Origin: Nitzschia sp. pyKryTriq1
Taxonomy: Eukaryota > Bacillariophyta > Bacillariophyceae > Bacillariales > Bacillariaceae
NCBI GenBank assembly: GCA_956465555.1
Contig: OY101125.1
Location: 622,501 to 686,500 of the forward strand
DNA length: 64,000 nucleotides
Direction of reading: 5' to 3'
A program made the position numbers and the translations under genes. The notes beneath the pieces were generated by a model. It worked only from the letters and a program-made list of their open reading frames with translations. It was not told the DNA's origin and did no database searches. Each line of letters begins with the position of its first letter. Within the stretch, counting starts at the first letter, position 1. Positions 14,852-63,300 of this stretch are shown here, piece after piece.

Positions 14852-14893
14852 ATGTATAATAGTCGAGCCCATATCGTCCATCCGTCCAGTAGA

Positions 14894-17800
14894 ATGCAGC
14901 TATCCACAAAAAAGGAAATGCTACTGCTACGTCGGCTTGTTATTGGCCCCTTGATGTGCTGTCTCGGGATAATACTCCTCGCACCGGTGTTGTCGTTGTC
15001 AAGCGATGCCAATACGAGTACTCCGGCACTGGTACTGGATGATGATGACGATCATTCCGTCGAAGCACTACCAGTACTGGCATCTCCTATTCTTCTTTCG
15101 ACAGCAGCAGCCGCGGCAGCACCGAATAATTGTCAAGAATGGAATGCCGATAATCGCTTGGAGTGTTGGCTGTGGCAACTTCGGGTGGAAATTCCCGCCG
15201 AATCCTTTTCCGCCGATTGGATTACCATTTCCATCAAGGATATGGTATGCACTCACTTTGCGCTTCACAATCTACAATCCGACTATCTTGCTCCTCATTC
15301 GGTAGAACTTTCCGTACACACCTTACAAGCGACTTGTCAAGGAAAGTATCATGCGAGTGGAGGGATCTCTGGGAACGTGGAAGCCGGTGTGTCGACGCAA
15401 AAGAAGGCAGAAGCTCTGCAAGTCGCCTTTCGGGTAGTTCCCAGTACGGCGTATCCGTTGATACGACCCTACACATTTCAAACCACCAACTGTCAAACCC
15501 ATTTACAAGCGACCAATATTCATTTTAGTGGGAGCATGTCGGCCAAGCTCATTCAAGCCTTTTCGAAAACAATCGGGCACTATATTTCACAAGCCTTGCA
15601 AGAACAAACATGTCCCCTCCTGCCCAAAGAATTGGATCCGTTGGTGACCGACTATCTACACCAGCTCGATGATTGGATGAAACCCTATCTGATGCCCAAG
15701 AATAGCAATATGATGGTGGGGTCATCATCATCATCATCATCATCATCGATGGACTACTACTTCTCGAACTATCGAAAGAATGCAACCAAGCTGTCACCGT
15801 CCATCAGAGTACCCACTAATAATAACGGTAGGGAACGACGACTTGGGTCGACGATGCCACGAGTACAGTGGGATAATGTTTCAACTTCCGTCCTGGTAAC
15901 ATCGAACAACAACAAAAATACCGATGATACGGCGGCAGTCGTCGATCCGATTGATTGGGATGTCGTTTTCTGGGCTCTCAGTTTGTTCAACACAGAATTG
16001 GCGGAGCATTTGCAACAGGGATGGCTCTTCAACTCCAACAATACCCAAAAGTATTGTCCTCAACACAAGTGTCAAAACATGTTTCGGGGATTATCTGGAT
16101 GGTTCCGATCGATTGTGGGTCCCCAACTATTGATTCCATTACCACCCTACTTTCACAACATTTCCTTGCCGCCCTTGCCGCTTGATGCTAACGTGTCGGT
16201 GGGAGCGGATCACATTTCGATCCATGGGTTGGATTTGTTGAGTATATTGCAAGTCTTTCGACCAATGACTCTTCCAAAAGGCAATAGTACAAGTAGTACC
16301 AACGCTCTCGCCTCGCAGCTTTCAACAACCTCCGAGATTTCTATTGAAGCACCCATTGCATTGAACATTCAAATGGCGGCCAACTCCAACAAACATGCAT
16401 TGCTAGAGCCTTTCACCGTCAAGATCAATGTGACCAAACTGGACACACTTCTGACCACAACTCTCAAGGTGATGGATTGGGACCAGACGAGTCTACTACA
16501 AGTCGTCGATGCTGTCCAACGTTTTGTGGAACATCCGACACCTGACAACATTCGACCAGTGCTCGGCTGTTTGATTCGTACCATTGTCGATGTCGAGAAT
16601 GTGGATTGGATCACTTCGTTGGTGTTGGATTCGGTGACTGTGACACGACGGACAGCTCGTTTTCAAAATCAAACGGATTCGTTGGAAGATGATTTAGATC
16701 ATGTGATCAATTCGGTACTGGAATTGCTGCTTGGAGAATATTCGGACTTGTGGACCGACTTAATCCAGGGATTGATTCGAGATCCCGCCCGTCATAGCCT
16801 CAATGACTACCTCCGGAATTGGTTGCGGCACCACTCCTCGGCACATGTTTGCCCACCGGCTGTGGTTCCCACCACAGCCACGCCCAAGTGGCTCAATTTT
16901 TCCAAATTCTTGATATTGGATCATTTCAACGACTTTTTGAATCACGAATCGACGCTACATACCGTGAATCAGTATCTAGAATGTGTGGGGAACTACTTCG
17001 AGGGATATGTGGCAGCACGAGCGAGTGGAAACGATCATCATGCGAACAACAGAAGAATGGATGTTGCTGCTGCAAACCAACCTCGGTTGCAAGGTCTGTT
17101 GGAAGTAGTGCAAGTGGAAGCCAAGCATTGGAACGCCGTCCAACATATCCAACTAATGCAGCCAACGGATGACACGACGTTAGAATCTTCGATTCAATGG
17201 GGGTCCAACACCACAGTACCACAACTTCATGTTACCTTGCAAGTGGATACCGAACAACTATCAGGTATTGTTAATATTACTCTTTTTGCTGGACTCCAAG
17301 CCAAACTGGGAACAATGCTGAATTACAATCTGAATCGACTGGAAAACTTGACGGTCGCCCACTTGCTCCAACAAGTCCAATGTGGCATGGTTCCTACGAT
17401 CGATGTCCGCCTCTTGCCTCATGTGACAGCTGCCGATTTAGGACCGCGGGTTGGTCTTAATGTCAGTGCCATTCTGAACAACCAGAGCGTTTCCTACTCA
17501 ACGAACGACAGTACGAGTATTGGCAACAACAATACTGACAATGTGGCTAATCTTGCAGCTGGGGCCTTGGAATGGTCCGTGGAATGGGCTCGGAATCTGG
17601 CAAACAAGGCCTTGAAAGATTTGGTTGTACGATCCCCGGATATTTGTCCGGGCATCGTTCCTAACGAAAAAGTACCAGACGACCATGGCCATGACAATGA
17701 TGATTCTGCTTGGTACGATTATCCAATGATTTGGATTGTAGTTGTGTTCGTCGTGCTGGGCCAAGGCGGCCTGGTGGGAATTGTCAAGGGTCCAGAGGAA

Positions 17801-19498
17801 CGGGAGGAGTCGAATGGTGAGAATCCCGAGCCGAATCCTCTGACAACACCACTACTTGCCGCACCTCTTGAGGACGATATCATGGACCCTGCTCCGTTGG
17901 AGCATGATGTTGATGACTATGCTAGGGCTATGATGGAAATGGACCAAGCACTACTCAATGATATCCGAGACACAAGTGCTGATGGCGATCCACCGTCGAT
18001 GATTGTGGACGAAGAAACCTTTGTGAGCGACGAAGAGCTGGAAGACCTCAAACCGCTACTGATCGCTAGTGCAATCCCTGAAATCGTGCGATTTGCCATT
18101 CCAATGTTGATTATCGTGACGATCATTCTGCTATTTTCAAGCAACGTTAGCGTCGGCGCTTCGGTTAACATGTCCATTCGAGTCGGTGGCACTCCCATTC
18201 ATCTGCCTGGTCTGTTCGAGTTCAGTTTGGGAAACACCATATCGGAATTGTTTGGGGCGAGAATCTACCCATTACTCTTCCTGGTTGTCGTCTTTAGTGG
18301 CATCTGGCCCTACGCAAAGCTTGTCTTGATGTTCTACATTTGGAATGCTTCGTATCGAGATACTCTTCAAAGAGAGCAACGCTTGCTGACCCTGGATGCT
18401 CTCAGCAAATTCTCTCTTGTCGATACCTACGTGTTGGTTGTTATGCTTGTTGCGTTCCGATTCCATCTGGATTTATCAGAAGAGCTCGGCTTGGACGTGT
18501 ACGTTACCCCCGAGTATGGCTTCTATGCATTTCTGCTCGCCACGTGCATGTCACTTGTGCTTGGACACGGGATGCTGTACTTTCATCGCAAGGCCGAACA
18601 TCCCGGTCACCGCGAGACTATTGAACACTTAATTGAAAGGAAATCTGTCTTTGACCATGCCTTCGATGTCGAGGATAACGGGCCGCGACGACCTCTCTCT
18701 CATATCTTCCAAGTCATTGTTTTTACTTCATGTCTGTTCGCAATACTATTTTTGATCTTGGGCTTTGGTCAAGAGAGCTTTGCGTTTGAGTTTGGGGGTC
18801 TAGCAGGTATGGCGCTGAGTGAGAAGAACTCGACAAGTTATTCGCTTTTGTCCTTGGGCGCTGCCATTCCACGAAGTGTGGAAGATTCCAACAGCCTCGG
18901 GATCCTCTTCCTTCAAATCGCCTACTACTTTTACGCTGTCTTGACCCCCGTCGCCTGTTTGACGCTTCTGATGGTCTTGCTTCTTTATCCTGCCACTCCC
19001 AAGATGCAAAAACGCCTTCTCGTTGCCGCCGAGATCGCCAATGCTTGGAGTGCAGTGGAAGTTTTTGTCCTCTCCATCGTGGCCGCCTTGTTTCAGATTT
19101 CAACATTCGCCTCCTTCATTATTGGTGATAAATGCGACCTGGTCAACAAGATAGCTGTTAGATTGATTGGTGGTGAAATTATTCCAGCCAACGATGCCGT
19201 GTGTTTCCGCGTGGTTGCGTCCGTGGAACCAAGCTGCTGGTATCTGGTCGTTGGCGTCTTGATGAACTCCTTCGTTTCATCGTTAGTTTTGCGACTAGCT
19301 CATGCTGCTGTGCATGAAAGGTCCGGACACGGGGGCGGCAACACTTTCCCTCGCCAATTGTTCGGATCACCAATTGGTGTGGTGTTCTTTGGGCCGGAAG
19401 TTGGGGAAGATAATGGGCTGCAGGAAGGAGGAGCGGAGGGAGAAGAAGAAGCCGACGGCGAAGAAGAAAACGCACCCGATTGGAGGTTTTGGTTTTAG
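14894..19498 (+). CDS. TULIP/BPI-like lipid-binding protein fused to tandem PqiA/LetA-like membrane modules
   Basis: A single frame of 1534 residues from ATG 14894 (14852 adds 14). A signal peptide is clear (LLLRRLVIGPLMCCLGIILL). Next comes a luminal or extracellular part of about 930 residues, whose first 250 resemble the BPI/LBP/TULIP fold: ITISIKDMVCTHFALHNL, a Cys pair, then FSKTIGHYISQALQEQTCPLL. The C-terminal 600 residues hold about eight hydrophobic helices. Two PqiA-type signatures are visible. The first is GIWPYAKLVLMFYIW, then a basic segment, LDALSKFSLVDTYVLVVMLV and HRKAEHPG. The second is YPATPKMQKRLLVAAE with NAWSAVEVFVLSIVAALF. Bacterial PqiA/LetA works with MCE proteins to move lipids between membranes; TULIP domains shuttle lipids in eukaryotes. 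A lipid-transfer role is inferred. A long acidic loop separates the first helix from the rest. Confidence 0.75.
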   Translation: MQLSTKKEMLLLRRLVIGPLMCCLGIILLAPVLSLSSDANTSTPALVLDDDDDHSVEALPVLASPILLSTAAAAAAPNNCQEWNADNRLECWLWQLRVEIPAESFSADWITISIKDMVCTHFALHNLQSDYLAPHSVELSVHTLQATCQGKYHASGGISGNVEAGVSTQKKAEALQVAFRVVPSTAYPLIRPYTFQTTNCQTHLQATNIHFSGSMSAKLIQAFSKTIGHYISQALQEQTCPLLPKELDPLVTDYLHQLDDWMKPYLMPKNSNMMVGSSSSSSSSSMDYYFSNYRKNATKLSPSIRVPTNNNGRERRLGSTMPRVQWDNVSTSVLVTSNNNKNTDDTAAVVDPIDWDVVFWALSLFNTELAEHLQQGWLFNSNNTQKYCPQHKCQNMFRGLSGWFRSIVGPQLLIPLPPYFHNISLPPLPLDANVSVGADHISIHGLDLLSILQVFRPMTLPKGNSTSSTNALASQLSTTSEISIEAPIALNIQMAANSNKHALLEPFTVKINVTKLDTLLTTTLKVMDWDQTSLLQVVDAVQRFVEHPTPDNIRPVLGCLIRTIVDVENVDWITSLVLDSVTVTRRTARFQNQTDSLEDDLDHVINSVLELLLGEYSDLWTDLIQGLIRDPARHSLNDYLRNWLRHHSSAHVCPPAVVPTTATPKWLNFSKFLILDHFNDFLNHESTLHTVNQYLECVGNYFEGYVAARASGNDHHANNRRMDVAAANQPRLQGLLEVVQVEAKHWNAVQHIQLMQPTDDTTLESSIQWGSNTTVPQLHVTLQVDTEQLSGIVNITLFAGLQAKLGTMLNYNLNRLENLTVAHLLQQVQCGMVPTIDVRLLPHVTAADLGPRVGLNVSAILNNQSVSYSTNDSTSIGNNNTDNVANLAAGALEWSVEWARNLANKALKDLVVRSPDICPGIVPNEKVPDDHGHDNDDSAWYDYPMIWIVVVFVVLGQGGLVGIVKGPEEREESNGENPEPNPLTTPLLAAPLEDDIMDPAPLEHDVDDYARAMMEMDQALLNDIRDTSADGDPPSMIVDEETFVSDEELEDLKPLLIASAIPEIVRFAIPMLIIVTIILLFSSNVSVGASVNMSIRVGGTPIHLPGLFEFSLGNTISELFGARIYPLLFLVVVFSGIWPYAKLVLMFYIWNASYRDTLQREQRLLTLDALSKFSLVDTYVLVVMLVAFRFHLDLSEELGLDVYVTPEYGFYAFLLATCMSLVLGHGMLYFHRKAEHPGHRETIEHLIERKSVFDHAFDVEDNGPRRPLSHIFQVIVFTSCLFAILFLILGFGQESFAFEFGGLAGMALSEKNSTSYSLLSLGAAIPRSVEDSNSLGILFLQIAYYFYAVLTPVACLTLLMVLLLYPATPKMQKRLLVAAEIANAWSAVEVFVLSIVAALFQISTFASFIIGDKCDLVNKIAVRLIGGEIIPANDAVCFRVVASVEPSCWYLVVGVLMNSFVSSLVLRLAHAAVHERSGHGGGNTFPRQLFGSPIGVVFFGPEVGEDNGLQEGGAEGEEEADGEEENAPDWRFWF

Positions 19499-24596: not shown

Positions 24597-25385
24597 ATGC
24601 CCAATGTCTTGGATCAAGTGTTTGGATGGATGAAAAAGCACGACGAGCAGCAGCAGCAGCAGAAGCAGCAAGCCAATGAGGCGGGAGAAACTACTAATGA
24701 GGCGGGAGAAACTACTAATGAGGCGGGAGAAACTACTAATAAAAGTATTACGGAACCAAAAGCTGGGCCAGCAGACGAAGAAGACCACGAGCAAGAAGAG
24801 CAAGAATGGGAAGACGATAGTCACCTCTTCCCAACACATGCTGCCTTTACCATTCCTGTGGAGATCAAACCAACTCCTCGTTTGGGGAAGGATCAATATG
24901 GGGTCTTTGCTGCGCAAGACATTCCTGCCAATACCGAATTTTGGCTGTGGACCCATCGGGTGGTCGAAATACCGTCATCGCAGGTGCGTTCCCACATTGC
25001 CGAACACTACCAGCCAGACGATCTGGAAGGAATCCGAGCCTTTTTACGGCGCGGCTTTGTGCTACCTTCACCCTACGATGATTGCTTCTACTCCAATCCC
25101 ACGGATGCCGGAACCTTTATGAATCATTCTTCGACATCCCCCAACTGTGCCAGACCCAATGGAACGACTCGGCTAATCAAGGCGGGGGAAGAACTGACCA
25201 TGGACTATAGTGGAAATGGAAATCCGGTATGGTATGCCGATATCTGTCACGAATATGGCATCTTGACTCCTGTCGAAATCGCAGAGGAAGAAACCAAACG
25301 TGGAGGAGTTGTTCAACCAGCAGTCTATGATGGGCCCGTTAGCAACTCTTTGTTGGACAGCATGGTGTCACTGACGGGGCTCTAG
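24597..25385 (+). CDS. SET-domain-like protein
   Basis: A 262-residue protein. The first 70 residues are Gln-rich and then contain three perfect NEAGETT repeats. The second half has the layout of a short SET domain: GVFAAQDIPANTEFW near the N-terminal strand, then TFMNHSSTSPNCARPNG (the NHS..PNC motif that forms the cofactor pocket), then IKAGEELTMDYS (the conserved E-L-T-x-D-Y piece). SET proteins transfer methyl groups from S-adenosylmethionine to lysine on histones or other proteins. The typical post-SET cysteines are absent; the chain ends soon after NPVWYADICHEYG. The central insert is short. Catalytic activity and substrate are not shown by the sequence. Many related stramenopile proteins are annotated only as SET-like. 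Confidence 0.75.
   Translation: MPNVLDQVFGWMKKHDEQQQQQKQQANEAGETTNEAGETTNEAGETTNKSITEPKAGPADEEDHEQEEQEWEDDSHLFPTHAAFTIPVEIKPTPRLGKDQYGVFAAQDIPANTEFWLWTHRVVEIPSSQVRSHIAEHYQPDDLEGIRAFLRRGFVLPSPYDDCFYSNPTDAGTFMNHSSTSPNCARPNGTTRLIKAGEELTMDYSGNGNPVWYADICHEYGILTPVEIAEEETKRGGVVQPAVYDGPVSNSLLDSMVSLTGL
24675..24737 (+). repeat. Three perfect 21-bp tandem repeats inside the SET gene
   Basis: Identical units at 24675-24695, 24696-24716 and 24717-24737 encode NEAGETT three times. The identity at synonymous positions indicates recent expansion. Confidence 0.92.
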
Positions 25386-44240: not shown

Positions 44241-44498
44241 TGGTGTGTGATCAGGCATTTGTTCCGGAACGAGTAGTAGAGTGATTTGGGGAGCTAACTT
44301 TGTTACGTTTCGTCCCTGGTTTCGTCATTGTCGATTTCGGGTAGTTTCGTACCGGAGGTCAACGTCGATTTCTACGTGCTATTTATTTAGCTTTAGTTTC
44401 ATATCCTCAAAAAAGATGGGAGAAAAGATATGTGTACGGTGTACGGTTCCGTTGACGATGAGAAAAAGATCCCAAACCCTACCATTGTCTCTCCCGCA

Positions 44499-47219
44499 AT
44501 GACTTTCTTCCCAACGAAAATAATATTGCCTTTGTCGCTTTTCCTTGCGACAGTGTTTGGTGCTCACACCGAGTACTTGACGGCTTACGAGGCGCCTGAA
44601 CCTTATGAATACCTCAACGATAATTGCGAGCGTTGCAACCCTCCGGTGGAGGCAAGCCCTGATCCCCTGGTATCAATGACATGGAGTGATAAAACCAATA
44701 CTTCTCAGCTTCAAATATATCGGATTGATCGACCAGTCAAGTTCTGGGTTTCCCCTCCCGGTGCGGCGGATTTCGTCGCTACCCGTACTACATATAGTAC
44801 TACTTCGGGTTTGTCACCTCCGTTCTCGATTCTAGTATATCGAAATTGCACTGTGACATTGGACTGGGGAGTAGAGCGAGCGGCTTGGTTCGAATTGATT
44901 TCAGATGACGGCCTTGATAGTAATGGTCGTTTCCAGGTCAAGGCTTCCATATCGGAATACAATGAGCCTTATCCAGACAAGACAAGGTCACTAACCAAGT
45001 ATGGAAATCGCACGTATCGACTCGAAACCAATCCACAGCTCTACGAGGGTGTTCGGTTTTCTTTTCTTCATTTCGACTTTTTCGAAGCATCCACCACTGT
45101 ATCAACTCCAATTGAAATTTCAAGCATCTCTTTGGTAGGGAAGATCAAGCCCATCAACTACACAGGAGCATTCTACTCTTCGGATACGGAGCTTACAGAG
45201 GCTTGGTACACGGGCGCCTATGCTGTTCGACTGAACATGGAGGAAAATGATTTCAACTCAGTGTTGGTAGAGCGGGGAGATCGGGTAGCAATCCAAGGGG
45301 ATGGTCATCCCACTATTGACGCAGCCTTAGTCGCGTTTTCGAAGTACGATCTCATTCGAAATGTTTTATTTCAGACGGATTCGGGGAACAAGCGAGTTGT
45401 GGATGACTACATCATGGCATACCCTCTATACTGGTGCCTCAGTGCGATGGACTACTTCATGGAAAGCGGAGACTACGGTACCTTTAACAACCTGGTTGAA
45501 GATATGATGATTTTGGTGGACAAACGGATCCAGGATTTCCTCGATCCGAATTTGGACATCACATGGTTCGGCTGGGATGATCGGCTGGGGAGCGGTTGGT
45601 GCTTTCACTCGAAGAACGACCAATGCACTCGTGAGGCTTTATTGGCTTTTGCGGGCCTAGTCGTAAGAGTGTGTAAAGACTTTGCACGGATACTTGGCTT
45701 GGCAGATATGCCACTGGCTGCTCAAAAGTACGCAAATGCGTATTCGACTATGAAAGATCGTCTGCGTCGTGTGCCGGAGTGGCCGAGTGGATTTGGAACC
45801 CATGCTGCAGCAAACGCTATCAATGCTGGTGTTTCCAGCCCATCGGAAATAGCTCTTTGGATGAAATCGACTCTCAACGATCCCGTAAACATTTGCTCCT
45901 TTTCGCAATTCAATCAATATTGGATTCTCCAGGGATTTGGCAATGCGGATCGAATGGAGCATGCGCTGGCTTCCATCAAACTATGCTGGGGTCCAATGAT
46001 GACTCTGGGTAAAGGTTGCTTTTGGGAAATGTCGTCTCCCGAATGGCTGTCATTTATGAAGGAAGGGGATCAAGCTCCTCACTTACCCTCGTACTGTCAT
46101 CCGTGGTCCTCTGGCGTCACTCCATGGCTATCGCATATTTTGGCGGGTCTTCAGCCGACTCAACCGGGATACAAGCGATTCGTAGCGGCCCCGTATGTGT
46201 CACTGAGCTATCCATCCGTCAGTGCCGCGATTGCAACGCCACAAGGGACAATCACTGTGAACGCTACATTGCAGAATAGTACGATGGACCAAGGTGGCTT
46301 CTCCTACAGCGCCACAATCGAATGTCTCACTCCAGGAGTCTTTGGAATCCGTTTCAATATTTCGGATATGAATGACAAAACAGTGGGTAGTTTGCAAGAT
46401 TTCTCTCTCAATGGAATTCGAGGAGACGTGATTTCACATGAAGAAGTTGCCGAACTTCTTGGTGATTCCCATCGAATACATGGGTATCTCTTTCTTCGAA
46501 TCTTTGAAAAGGGGACACATCGCATACAAGCAACCTACCGCCCCTTTGTATTTTCGAGAAATCACGAGGGCAGCAACGACAAGGCATCGAAACGGATACG
46601 CCCCTTTCCCGAACCAAAGTATTTGGCGCCTACCCCTTCGGTCGACCGAAGCAGCCAAGGCGATGGTCTAAACATCCATGGTCGGGATGGCTATCTTCTC
46701 CTTGGATGCGACAAGGGTGGAAATGATATCGAACGTTTACCGTCTTACGTTTCCAAAATTGCAATCCGCCGCCATGGATTCCCTGGCTGGTTAGTACCGG
46801 ACAGAGAATATGTGGGTACTTCGGATAGCAACCCAGTATATCTACCAATTTCCAAGAATCAAGGTACAAGAAATACTACGGTACAAAAGCGAGCACTTGG
46901 TATGGTTGGAATAGATGATACCGGAGGGGGAGATATCAATTGTATTTTTTTGGACATCACTATGAAGGAATCTGAACCATCCTTTCTGAATTATCGTCAG
47001 GGTCCAGTTTTGATTTCGGTATACTTTGTGGCCAAGTCTGATAAAAACCAACACGCCATTCGTGTCATGGACGGCAAAACTTTGAATGTGATTGCTCCTA
47101 CTTCCTTTATGACCGACTTTAAGGGCGGTGTTTGGTGGACATTGGAGTACAACAGTAACATTCGTCTTCGGCTGATGGATGTGAAAGGAGTCCATGTGTC
47201 AGCCGTTGCGTTTTCTTGA
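44499..47219 (+). CDS. Secreted GH78-like (alpha-L-rhamnosidase family) glycosidase
   Basis: A 906-residue protein starting at ATG 44499, which gives a proper signal peptide (MTFFPTKIILPLSLFLATVFG); the frame opens earlier at 44430. An N-terminal beta-rich part of about 240 residues is followed by an (alpha/alpha)6-type catalytic region. The acidic entry segment is DRVAIQGDGHPTIDAALVAF, followed by YPLYWCLSAMDYFMESGDY and WFGWDDRLGSG. The closing block HPWSSGVTPWLSHILAGLQP, then PGYKRFVAAPYV, is very typical of GH78. GH78 enzymes release terminal L-rhamnose from glycans. About 270 further residues after the GH78 core, from DGLNIHGRDGYLLLG on, form an extra domain resembling a sugar-binding or beta-sandwich module. 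Substrate is unproven. The family is mainly bacterial and fungal. Confidence 0.8.
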   Translation: MTFFPTKIILPLSLFLATVFGAHTEYLTAYEAPEPYEYLNDNCERCNPPVEASPDPLVSMTWSDKTNTSQLQIYRIDRPVKFWVSPPGAADFVATRTTYSTTSGLSPPFSILVYRNCTVTLDWGVERAAWFELISDDGLDSNGRFQVKASISEYNEPYPDKTRSLTKYGNRTYRLETNPQLYEGVRFSFLHFDFFEASTTVSTPIEISSISLVGKIKPINYTGAFYSSDTELTEAWYTGAYAVRLNMEENDFNSVLVERGDRVAIQGDGHPTIDAALVAFSKYDLIRNVLFQTDSGNKRVVDDYIMAYPLYWCLSAMDYFMESGDYGTFNNLVEDMMILVDKRIQDFLDPNLDITWFGWDDRLGSGWCFHSKNDQCTREALLAFAGLVVRVCKDFARILGLADMPLAAQKYANAYSTMKDRLRRVPEWPSGFGTHAAANAINAGVSSPSEIALWMKSTLNDPVNICSFSQFNQYWILQGFGNADRMEHALASIKLCWGPMMTLGKGCFWEMSSPEWLSFMKEGDQAPHLPSYCHPWSSGVTPWLSHILAGLQPTQPGYKRFVAAPYVSLSYPSVSAAIATPQGTITVNATLQNSTMDQGGFSYSATIECLTPGVFGIRFNISDMNDKTVGSLQDFSLNGIRGDVISHEEVAELLGDSHRIHGYLFLRIFEKGTHRIQATYRPFVFSRNHEGSNDKASKRIRPFPEPKYLAPTPSVDRSSQGDGLNIHGRDGYLLLGCDKGGNDIERLPSYVSKIAIRRHGFPGWLVPDREYVGTSDSNPVYLPISKNQGTRNTTVQKRALGMVGIDDTGGGDINCIFLDITMKESEPSFLNYRQGPVLISVYFVAKSDKNQHAIRVMDGKTLNVIAPTSFMTDFKGGVWWTLEYNSNIRLRLMDVKGVHVSAVAFS

Positions 47220-60365: not shown

Positions 60366-63300
60366 TTATTGCTCCCCGTCAAGCTCCAACACAGGCAGTT
60401 CTTGCGTACGACCAAAATATTGCTCCACCATCGCCTGGACGATGGATTCCCCCTTTCGTTCCCATTCCTTGCGATTTTCCAGAGCATAGGAAAGATATTC
60501 GTCACTCGAGACCCCAAAGACTCCGCAGTCCTTCAATTTCTTGGACAACGGAATGACGTAGTTATCAAAGAACCACAATTCGCCCTTGTACCAGCCCAAG
60601 GAGGGGTCGGTCTCGCTTCTTCCGTCTTGAAAGGCTTGGTACATTTCATTGAACAGACGTTGGTTCCATCGCTGGTAGATATGCCAATGCTGCATTGTGT
60701 GAGCGACATCTGAAGCTTGGATCACATGCTCAATGACAATGGTCGCCTTGCGATTGATATCAAATTCGGACTGGCTGCTGCTATTCTCGACCGCAAAGGC
60801 CTTCTCCCATCGCGATTTGCGCAATTGACCAAGGTCCTTGTCAAAGATATCTGTCGCGATGACACAATTGACTACCAACTTGCGGAACAAGTCCATGTCG
60901 GCCTTGGTTGCAAAGATGCACTTGCGAAGATTTTGATACTCAGGCTCCATGAGGAAATCCCACGCAATATCCACGGACTGCTGTTCGGCGAGACTCTGGT
61001 TTCGGTACTTTTCAGCGATCTCAGGGCTTTCCTTTGCGAGTATTGCGTTGGGGACACCGCTGTGACCAGCGTCGTGAATCATTGCGGCAAAGACGCAAGC
61101 AAATTGTGTCATGGGATCCGACGTAATGCCATAGGTTTGATCATATATGGAGCGGGCGACCTGTTCCCTCTGCTCCGCCACCGAACCGTTCAAGGTACCA
61201 ACCGTAACATCGGGAGATACAATGCGACCAAGAAGCTTTGTGACAGACATGGTCACGTGGGAACAGTGCTCGAAATTATGGAACGAGTTGGGTAGGTAGC
61301 AAGAAGCAATGGTGATTACAAAGTCTCGAAGCTCACCCGTGACGATCGGGTCCAATTCAATGGACTCAGGATCAACTGTGTTCCTATGTGCCGATGGGTC
61401 AAAGGCTGGAAGCTCGATCACTTCCCGAACCTCATCCATCACAATCATACCAGTACCAGAACTAGAGGGCTGGGAGTTATCGGCATCGGTAACCGACTTG
61501 TTTTTCTTCGTGTTGCTGGTCGCTTGGCGTCTGGCGACAATCTGACGAATCAAGCGGGCAAGAATGTCAGTATTCCATTGGATAAGTCGCTCGGTGCGCT
61601 CGTCCAAGTAATCGACGCCAGCTGCTCCCTCGGATGCCTCGCCACCCGACGAAGCAGAAACCCCGCTGGCGACGGACCCAGCGTTGCGAAGTCGAGGTTC
61701 AATCCAGTAGGTTTGCATCTCGCCCTTGCCCTTGGCTGTCACTTTTTCCTTGCGAGCTCGGACCCAACTATTCTTTCCAGCCGTCAGCAGATAGTCCACT
61801 GTTGATTGCGATGCTTGGATACGACCGGGTATTCCCGTTGACTCCATCCGACTGGCGGTGTTAACGGTGTCTCCAAACAATTGGAATCGACTCTTCTGTC
61901 CTCTGAGCACTCCAGCGGTCACGGGACCCGAGTTGAGACCAAAACGGAGCATCAAATCGGCAGTGTCGGGGCCCAACTCTTTTTCGAGTTCTCGAGTCAA
62001 CAGGTCGAACTTCTCACGACAATCCCTTGCAAATTTGCACATTACAGTTGCATGGTTCGGTCTGGGTTCAGGCAAGCCGCAGGCGGCGACATAGGAATCA
62101 CCAATGGTCTCGACTTTGAAGACCTTGCGCTTATCCGCAAGGGCATCGAACGCTCCGTAGACACTCTCCAAGAGACAAAAAACTTGTTGAGGATCTCTCG
62201 TGGACGACCAGGCCGTGAAGCCTGCAATATCGGCAAACATGACCGTCTAGGACGGAAGGAGCAAGCGCGAACGAAGGTTGGTGGAGGGTGATTAGTGTTG
62301 TTCAACTGGATCGAATATGTGACAAACCAGAACGCCCACATAAACTTACTGCCTCGGGGAATAAATCTGCAATGGCCGGCCCCTTGTTTTTGATCACGCC
62401 CGAAGAAAGGGTTGTGCCATCCTCTCCATATTTGTCCATGGCCGAAGGAACCTGGCTGGTGAGGAAAGTCCCTTCCTTTTTTGAAACCTTTGCTTGCTTT
62501 TCATCATCAAACAAACGATCGCGCACGTTTGAGGGGAAGAGAGAACTGACGATGGCTGTAGATTTCTGGGCGGCGCCGTATACTTTCTTCTGCCGACGCT
62601 CCACGATGCAATCGTAAAACAAAAAGACAATTGCCGTAAATACAAAGATCATGACAGAAACAACAGTAAAGATGATCGCGTCATTGCTGATGTAGTCATC
62701 TTCCATCGTGACCGAAGGGTAGACTCGAATGTGGAAGGGACAATACTCCTCGTCGAGAGGAACTCCTGTATATGTCTGAATCTCACCCTGATATTCGCTC
62801 AACTCATTGAGCCAGGCCGAGATCTCAAGGTAGTCGAAGCTCGGGTCATGCCTATCTCCTCGACCAAGGTAGATTACATCGGGACCATTGATCTGAAAGG
62901 TGAAAGTAGGATTGCACTCGTTTTCAAAGACCAAAACAATGCCATCCGAACCAGGAGGCAAAATCTGAATGCGTACAATGAAGAAGTGAAAAATGGGTCA
63001 GAACGCGATATCATTTCTGTTTGTGTTTGCACTTGCAAAGTGGCCCATTTCAGGAACACTCACGTCTTCAATGAGGTCTCGCCAGTAGATTGACATGGCC
63101 ATGATAGCGACGAGCTTTCCCCCTTCTTCCGCCATGTCACCGTCGCTACCATAGACCTCCACATTTTCAGCGGCAGTATCAAATACGGGGTAATAAATGT
63201 CAGAGATCGGCTCAGAAGGATCTTGATCGGCGTCGACATAGTCAGCAAACCACTCGACCGACCATTCAGTTTCCTGCACCCAGACGGGGTCGTTCTCGTC

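Follow-up and report, generated by a model that had tools for sequence, protein, structure and literature searches.

A protein encoded within a 64,000-nucleotide stretch of the Nitzschia sp. pyKryTriq1 genome (contig OY101125.1; the whole stretch is referred to below as the window) appears to handle lipids from an anchored position in the membrane and to be of the CETP/BPI plus PqiA kind, in which two PqiA modules and a TULIP domain would move the same lipid; we give this reading a probability of roughly 0.58. From the N- to the C-terminus it consists of a signal peptide, a BPI-type TULIP domain, approximately 650 further ectodomain residues, a single membrane anchor, an acidic loop, and two PqiA modules with four predicted helices each. 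The homologies to TULIP and PqiA proteins, this order of parts, and the existence of a paralogue family are apparent from the sequence. The preliminary description of this DNA had already noted a signal peptide, a BPI/LBP-like N-terminal part, and two PqiA-like signatures in one protein, and hydropathy, Pfam, and a paralogue profile bear out this architecture.

The protein is encoded by a single open frame on the forward strand (14852-19498), which gives 1548 aa when counted from the first ATG; an in-frame ATG at 14894, 14 codons downstream, yields 1534 aa, and residues are numbered here according to the 1534-aa form (14 is added to convert to the 1548-aa form; Table 1). Because more than 1500 codons stay open at 47-49% GC, the frame is not due to chance. 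The flanking genes encode CRAL/TRIO, mitochondrial-carrier, P450, glycosyltransferase-49, LRR, and SET proteins, which identifies the window as a eukaryotic nuclear region; the genome to which it belongs comprises 40,651,789 bases in 20 contigs and contains 72 matches to light-harvesting proteins. As regards the neighbours, a CRAL/TRIO lipid-binding protein (1559-2728, +; E = 6.2e-24) lies approximately 12 kb 5' of the fusion gene, and a SET-domain protein (24597-25385, +; E = 3.4e-8) carries a short AGETTNE-type tandem repeat close to its N-terminus. A 929-aa ORF (44430-47219, +) matches the bacterial alpha-L-rhamnosidase C-terminal domain just under the cut-off (21.7 vs. 22.1 bits), and a single ORF on the reverse strand (60369-62240, -) combines a nucleotide cyclase domain (E = 1e-45) and a domain of the cyclic-nucleotide phosphodiesterase type (E = 1.2e-25).

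Table 1. Features of the fusion gene and its predicted product (positions in the window; residues of the 1534-aa form).
Feature	Residues	Position	Strand	Basis or remark
Whole ORF		14894..19498	+	1534 aa plus stop; first in-frame ATG at 14852 adds 14 aa
Predicted signal peptide, hydrophobic core	15-33	14936..14992	+	hydropathy alone
Module A, very probable BPI-type TULIP domain	80-271	15131..15706	+	PF01273 below cut-off; paralogue profile to BPI
C200 codon, aligned with BPI C135	200	15491..15493	+	alignment, paralogue conservation
C240 codon, aligned with BPI C175	240	15611..15613	+	alignment, paralogue conservation
Module B	350-655	15941..16858	+	by-eye boundaries; resembles C12 (blastp E = 4e-5) and C8 (E = 0.002)
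Module C	666-920	16889..17653	+	by-eye boundaries; paired with paralogues by position alone
Predicted single membrane anchor	946-964	17729..17785	+	hydropathy
Acidic loop, predicted cytosolic	965-1063	17786..18082	+	D+E 29 vs. K+R 5
PqiA module 1, four predicted helices	1064-1228	18083..18577	+	Pfam, hydropathy, bacteria-only profile
PqiA module 2, four predicted helices	1271-1469	18704..19300	+	Pfam, hydropathy, bacteria-only profile
Acidic C-terminal tail	1470-1534	19301..19495	+	D+E 14 vs. K+R 3

In the membrane half, Pfam profile PF04403 matches two stretches with an E-value of 7.7e-12 (45.8 bits; cut-off 23.8). A module profile built from bacterial proteins only, run against the 498 window frames of at least 60 residues together with 200 shuffles of the membrane half, retrieves the fusion ORF (E = 6.8e-15; the individual modules, 1.5e-7 and 5.1e-8), the next best target being a shuffle at E = 0.55. 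The PqiA assignment made earlier is thus confirmed: PF04403 is above its cut-off, there are two modules, and no other ORF in the window is found by the bacteria-only profile. When searched against the PDB, a profile of four algal paralogues returns one distinct sequence at E <= 10, namely LetA/YebS (9n8w; E = 1.2e-5), in a match composed of two stretches that are weak singly (E = 0.1 and 0.058). The NCBIfam two-module PqiA/YebS model (TIGR00155) yields 13.7 bits, far under its cut-off of 260.35. Residues kept in four algal paralogues include K1142 and D1177 in module 1, which are aligned with a K and a D of the LetA C-terminal module, and C1414 and C1437 in the last outside loop of module 2. 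An AlphaFold model of the membrane half, computed from the window sequence alone, has a mean pLDDT of 40.1 and is unusable.

With PF04403 and the window protein as combined queries, at least six PqiA loci are found in the same genome: C11 (the window), C12, C8, C9, C16, and C6. A large ectodomain is joined to the PqiA half in three of them, i.e., in C11, C12 (1699 aa), and C8 (a 2445-aa frame); the N-terminus of C12 is homologous to that of C11, for which a blastp match (E = 2.2e-10) is the sole basis. Within the flanking stretches examined, no upstream same-strand ORF of at least 150 aa was found at C9 or C16, and none of at least 250 aa at C6. Thus, half of the loci (C9, C16, and C6) encode PqiA with no detected ectodomain, which suggests that the PqiA half is not always in need of a TULIP domain. 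The PF04403 cut-off of 23.8 bits is passed by C12 (52.5) and the first exon of C9 (48.4) and failed by the whole proteins of C8 (18.7) and C6 (20.7). Scans of viral contigs confirmed no relative. Near the C9 PqiA gene lies a Lys/Ser/Gly-rich, repetitive, secreted-looking protein (L018:1-1520), the N-terminal stretch of which has no Pfam match at E <= 0.001; it resembles diatom silaffins or silica-associated proteins and, together with the light-harvesting matches, points to a photosynthetic eukaryote, probably a diatom.

Module A is very probably a BPI-type TULIP domain. A module A profile built from three paralogues, when searched against 177,635 PDB sequences, places two BPI chains first (E = 1.1e-4 and 1.2e-4), followed by LBP (E = 0.061) and by four unrelated proteins from 0.088 up, the first of which is a viral glycoprotein; a profile of the whole ectodomain (three paralogues) retrieves at E <= 10 only BPI (two chains, 0.0012 and 0.0013) and LBP (0.55). 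Moreover, C200 and C240 are both invariant in the three paralogues and are separated by 40 positions, exactly as are C135 and C175 of BPI, with no gap between; the BPI pair forms a disulfide. A secreted ectodomain of some unrelated kind, whose BPI match reflects a chance helix and two cysteines, is very improbable, even though PF01273 remains under its cut-off in the window protein (E = 5.2e-5; 23.4 bits vs. 28.8) and covers only positions 110-165 of its 168, C12 has no PF01273 match at E <= 10, and an AlphaFold model of the ectodomain, from the window sequence alone, has a mean pLDDT of 33.4, too low to indicate a fold or cavity. The match between the module A profile and BPI spans approximately 108 positions, the part before the helix included, and in C8 PF01273 is covered from position 20 to 167 of 168 (E = 0.0034); together with the cysteine spacing, both argue against chance. 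The TULIP part proposed in the preliminary description fares differently in the two kinds of profile search, falling short of the Pfam cut-off but ranking BPI first in the PDB with the cysteine pair kept. BPI, LBP, and CETP, with which the protein shares the cysteine pair and, very probably, the N-terminal TULIP signature, differ from it in having approximately 456-467 residues in the solved chains and, being secreted proteins, no membrane half.

The remainder of the ectodomain comprises modules B and C, in neither of which was a second barrel of the BPI type recognised by profiles against the PDB. No significant Pfam family was found in the corresponding residues of the window protein, module B from C12 and C8 has no Pfam match at E <= 10, and B and C profiles of three rows (C12 and C8, with the window rows left out) gave nothing significant against the PDB. 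In C8, the B-C cassette occurs twice: a slice of the C12 ectodomain matches C8 over 7-817 (E = 1e-94) and, over 273-830, matches it again elsewhere (E = 1e-51). Pairwise phmmer comparisons inside C8 likewise relate B to B2 (5e-16) and C to C2 (3e-21), with E-values that refer to a database of one; under the same setting, the pairs A-B, A-B2, A-C, B-C, and B2-C2 stay under the inclusion threshold. When modules A, B, and C were compared with one another by hhalign (alignments of 3 or 4 rows), probabilities of 0.5-1.6% were obtained. We considered the label "tandem TULIPs" for B and C and dropped it, since hhalign, phmmer, and the PDB profiles give it no support. In the C8 paralogue (L017:2002-9339), the doubled cassette precedes a weakly matching PqiA half within the 2445-aa frame.

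Judged by hydropathy, the N-terminal core listed in Table 1 is followed by a weaker hydrophobic stretch at residues 58-76, and eight hydrophobic segments, four per PqiA module, lie between residues 1064 and 1469 (hydropathy alone). With the signal peptide cleaved, nine helices are predicted, which would leave the ectodomain outside and put the C-terminus on the inner side. The loops assigned to the inner side contain 21 K+R in 246 residues and those assigned to the outer side 9 in 161, with loop boundaries set by hand; the hydropathy cut-off is crude, as fewer segments are recovered in C12 at the same value. It is reasonable to assume that the signal peptide would direct the chain into the secretory pathway, that the ectodomain of approximately 900 residues would be exposed to the outside or to the lumen of an organelle, and that the nine-helix C-terminal half would be embedded in the membrane. 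N-glycosylation sites exceed the shuffle mean in C11 (17 vs. 10.2) but not in C12 (6 vs. 6.1) or C8 (15 vs. 15.6), a point against the lipid-handling reading. An alternative is a receptor or scavenger, whose ectodomain binds environmental lipids or lipopolysaccharide in the manner of BPI and LBP and whose PqiA half serves as an anchor that signals via its acidic loops. Among solved proteins, BPI and LBP alone come near module A, and the predicted cytosolic loop and the tail are long and strongly acidic. However, the protein has both PqiA modules complete, with K1142 and D1177 conserved across four paralogues, which is more than an anchor would require, and Pfam detects no kinase or other signalling domain in the window protein, so that a receptor appears unlikely.

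The relationship of the membrane half to bacterial proteins bears on how such a chain could have arisen. Like E. coli LetA and PqiA, the window protein has two four-helix PqiA modules, but it contains no CxxC motif, whereas LetA has four and PqiA five, as zinc-ribbon pairs preceding each module; CxxC zinc-ribbon pairs are absent from the membrane halves of C11, C12, C8, and C6, bar one CxxC in C6. Unlike LetA and PqiA, it also possesses a signal peptide, an anchor, and an ectodomain, has modules that fall outside their clade in the tree described below, and has no detected MCE partner gene. Of 299 genomes from the phylum of an E. coli record (G001), 119 gave a match to the four-paralogue profile at E <= 0.01. 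The two best bacterial matches (L107, E = 2.3e-13; L108, E = 5.5e-12) are single-module, zinc-ribbon-free proteins of Pseudomonadota, which resemble the algal ones in having no CxxC upstream and differ from them in consisting of one module of approximately 190-250 residues with no ectodomain. The few genes neighbouring these singles (L107:1339-2082 and L108:1450-2019) appear unrelated to lipid transport.

For a comparison of individual modules, 30 bacterial loci (L107-L136, among the best matches) were combined with E. coli PqiA and LetA and with the algal loci; the choice of bacterial loci that score high with the algal profile biases this sample. It contains 17 N-terminal, 17 C-terminal, and 23 single modules, six of the singles being zinc-free. 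Many zinc-ribbon singles lie next to a second one within the same locus and could derive from PqiA genes that have been split. Against the N, C, and zinc-free single profiles, module 1 scores 12.4, 21.2, and 39.7 bits in C11 and 28.4, 34.6, and 42.3 bits in C12; C9 module 1 favours the C profile (46.5 bits, vs. 43.3 for the zinc-free single). C11 module 2 shows no clear preference (22.5 bits with the N profile, 25.7 with C, and 23.4 with the zinc-free single). In a 69-row tree, a branch with support 100/99 places 50 rows (17 N, 17 C, and 16 singles) on one side and all 12 algal modules with 7 singles on the other; only 27% of the bootstrap trees set the algal modules apart as one side of a branch, and a long-branch warning applies. 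Six module-1 rows group together (93/83), and module 2 pairs C11 with C9 and C12 with C8 (both 99/93, subject to the same warning), which suggests that the duplication of the PqiA module probably predates the paralogues.

Within this context, descent of the membrane half from a bacterial two-module LetA/PqiA protein, with zinc ribbons lost and module order swapped, is quite improbable. The alignment with LetA matches module 1 to the C-terminal module of LetA and module 2 to its N-terminal module, as a swap would require; nonetheless, all 34 sampled modules of two-module bacterial proteins lie opposite the 12 algal modules across the 100/99 branch, module 1 favours zinc-free singles, and module 2 shows no clear preference for the N profile. 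The swapped order hinted at by the alignment was thus not upheld by profile scores and the tree. Because the algal modules fall outside the LetA/PqiA clade and near the zinc-free singles, their tandem looks to have arisen independently of LetA.

The same evidence bears on the suggestion, made in the preliminary description, that a TULIP domain may take the conduit role of an MCE protein. A six-frame search of the genome gave no match to MCE (MlaD, PF02470) at E <= 0.1, although introns or divergence could hide one, and this makes action without MCE plausible. Bacterial genes for two-domain PqiA proteins lie upstream of those for lipid-binding MCE proteins (PMC5561183). MCE genes are present in all six genomes of the zinc-free singles, and the best PqiA single lies on another contig in four of them, 2.3 Mb away in one, and approximately 9 kb away in one. 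With the algal modules outside the LetA/PqiA clade and their zinc-free relatives mostly not beside MCE genes, this protein probably did not arise from a LetAB system in which a TULIP domain replaced the MCE tunnel, though the two could work alike. A more elaborate origin, in which a single zinc-free PqiA module was duplicated independently of LetAB and joined to a chain of TULIP-like tubes (C11 and C12 with three each, C8 with five) that serve together as a covalent lipid bridge in place of an MCE tunnel, seems to us distinctly doubtful.

The preliminary description knew of no system of this kind, and this proved mistaken. CETP/BPI proteins with a C-terminal PqiA domain have been reported in protists and amoebae, where a lipid ligand common to both parts was suggested and 9-12 helices were given (Wong & Levine 2017, PMC5507252), and members of this kind would be expected in the plasma membrane; both the fusion and nearly the same inference are therefore in print. 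By its description there, the fusion resembles the window protein in having an extracellular CETP/BPI part followed by a C-terminal polytopic PqiA part, for which nine helices are predicted here, within the published range. The window protein thus belongs to a kind already published, and the idea of the fusion is not new. Section 2.1 of that paper makes no mention of modules B and C, of a duplicated cassette such as that of C8, or of PqiA-only paralogues. What is added here is the finding of six PqiA loci in one genome, three with large ectodomains and one with a duplicated cassette, together with the zinc-free affinity. Among the matches listed from the open-access literature, there was no further treatment of the fusion, of a zinc-free origin, or of a duplicated cassette.

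As a lipid-handling protein of the CETP/BPI plus PqiA kind, the chain might work as follows. The two PqiA modules would form a route for a lipid into or out of the bilayer on the side of the ectodomain, and this route would be either passive or coupled to ions; if PqiA transports at all, this could be passive, driven by an unidentified ATPase, or driven by proton-motive force (PMC10897342). TULIP tubes bind lipids (PMC5507252), and the BPI-type tube could receive or pass on the same lipid in the aqueous phase, with modules B and C serving for spacing, relay, or cargo selection. A single chain would then do the job of LetA and LetB (MCE), probably by convergence, because its modules are nearer to zinc-ribbon-free bacterial singles than to LetA.

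The protein unites, on one chain, a lipid-carrier fold of eukaryotes with a family of bacterial lipid permeases. Since both parts should then meet the same ligand, the fusion could reveal what PqiA modules move, and how. Within the paralogue family, the duplicated ectodomain cassette of C8 offers a natural test of whether such an ectodomain acts as a relay or a bridge.
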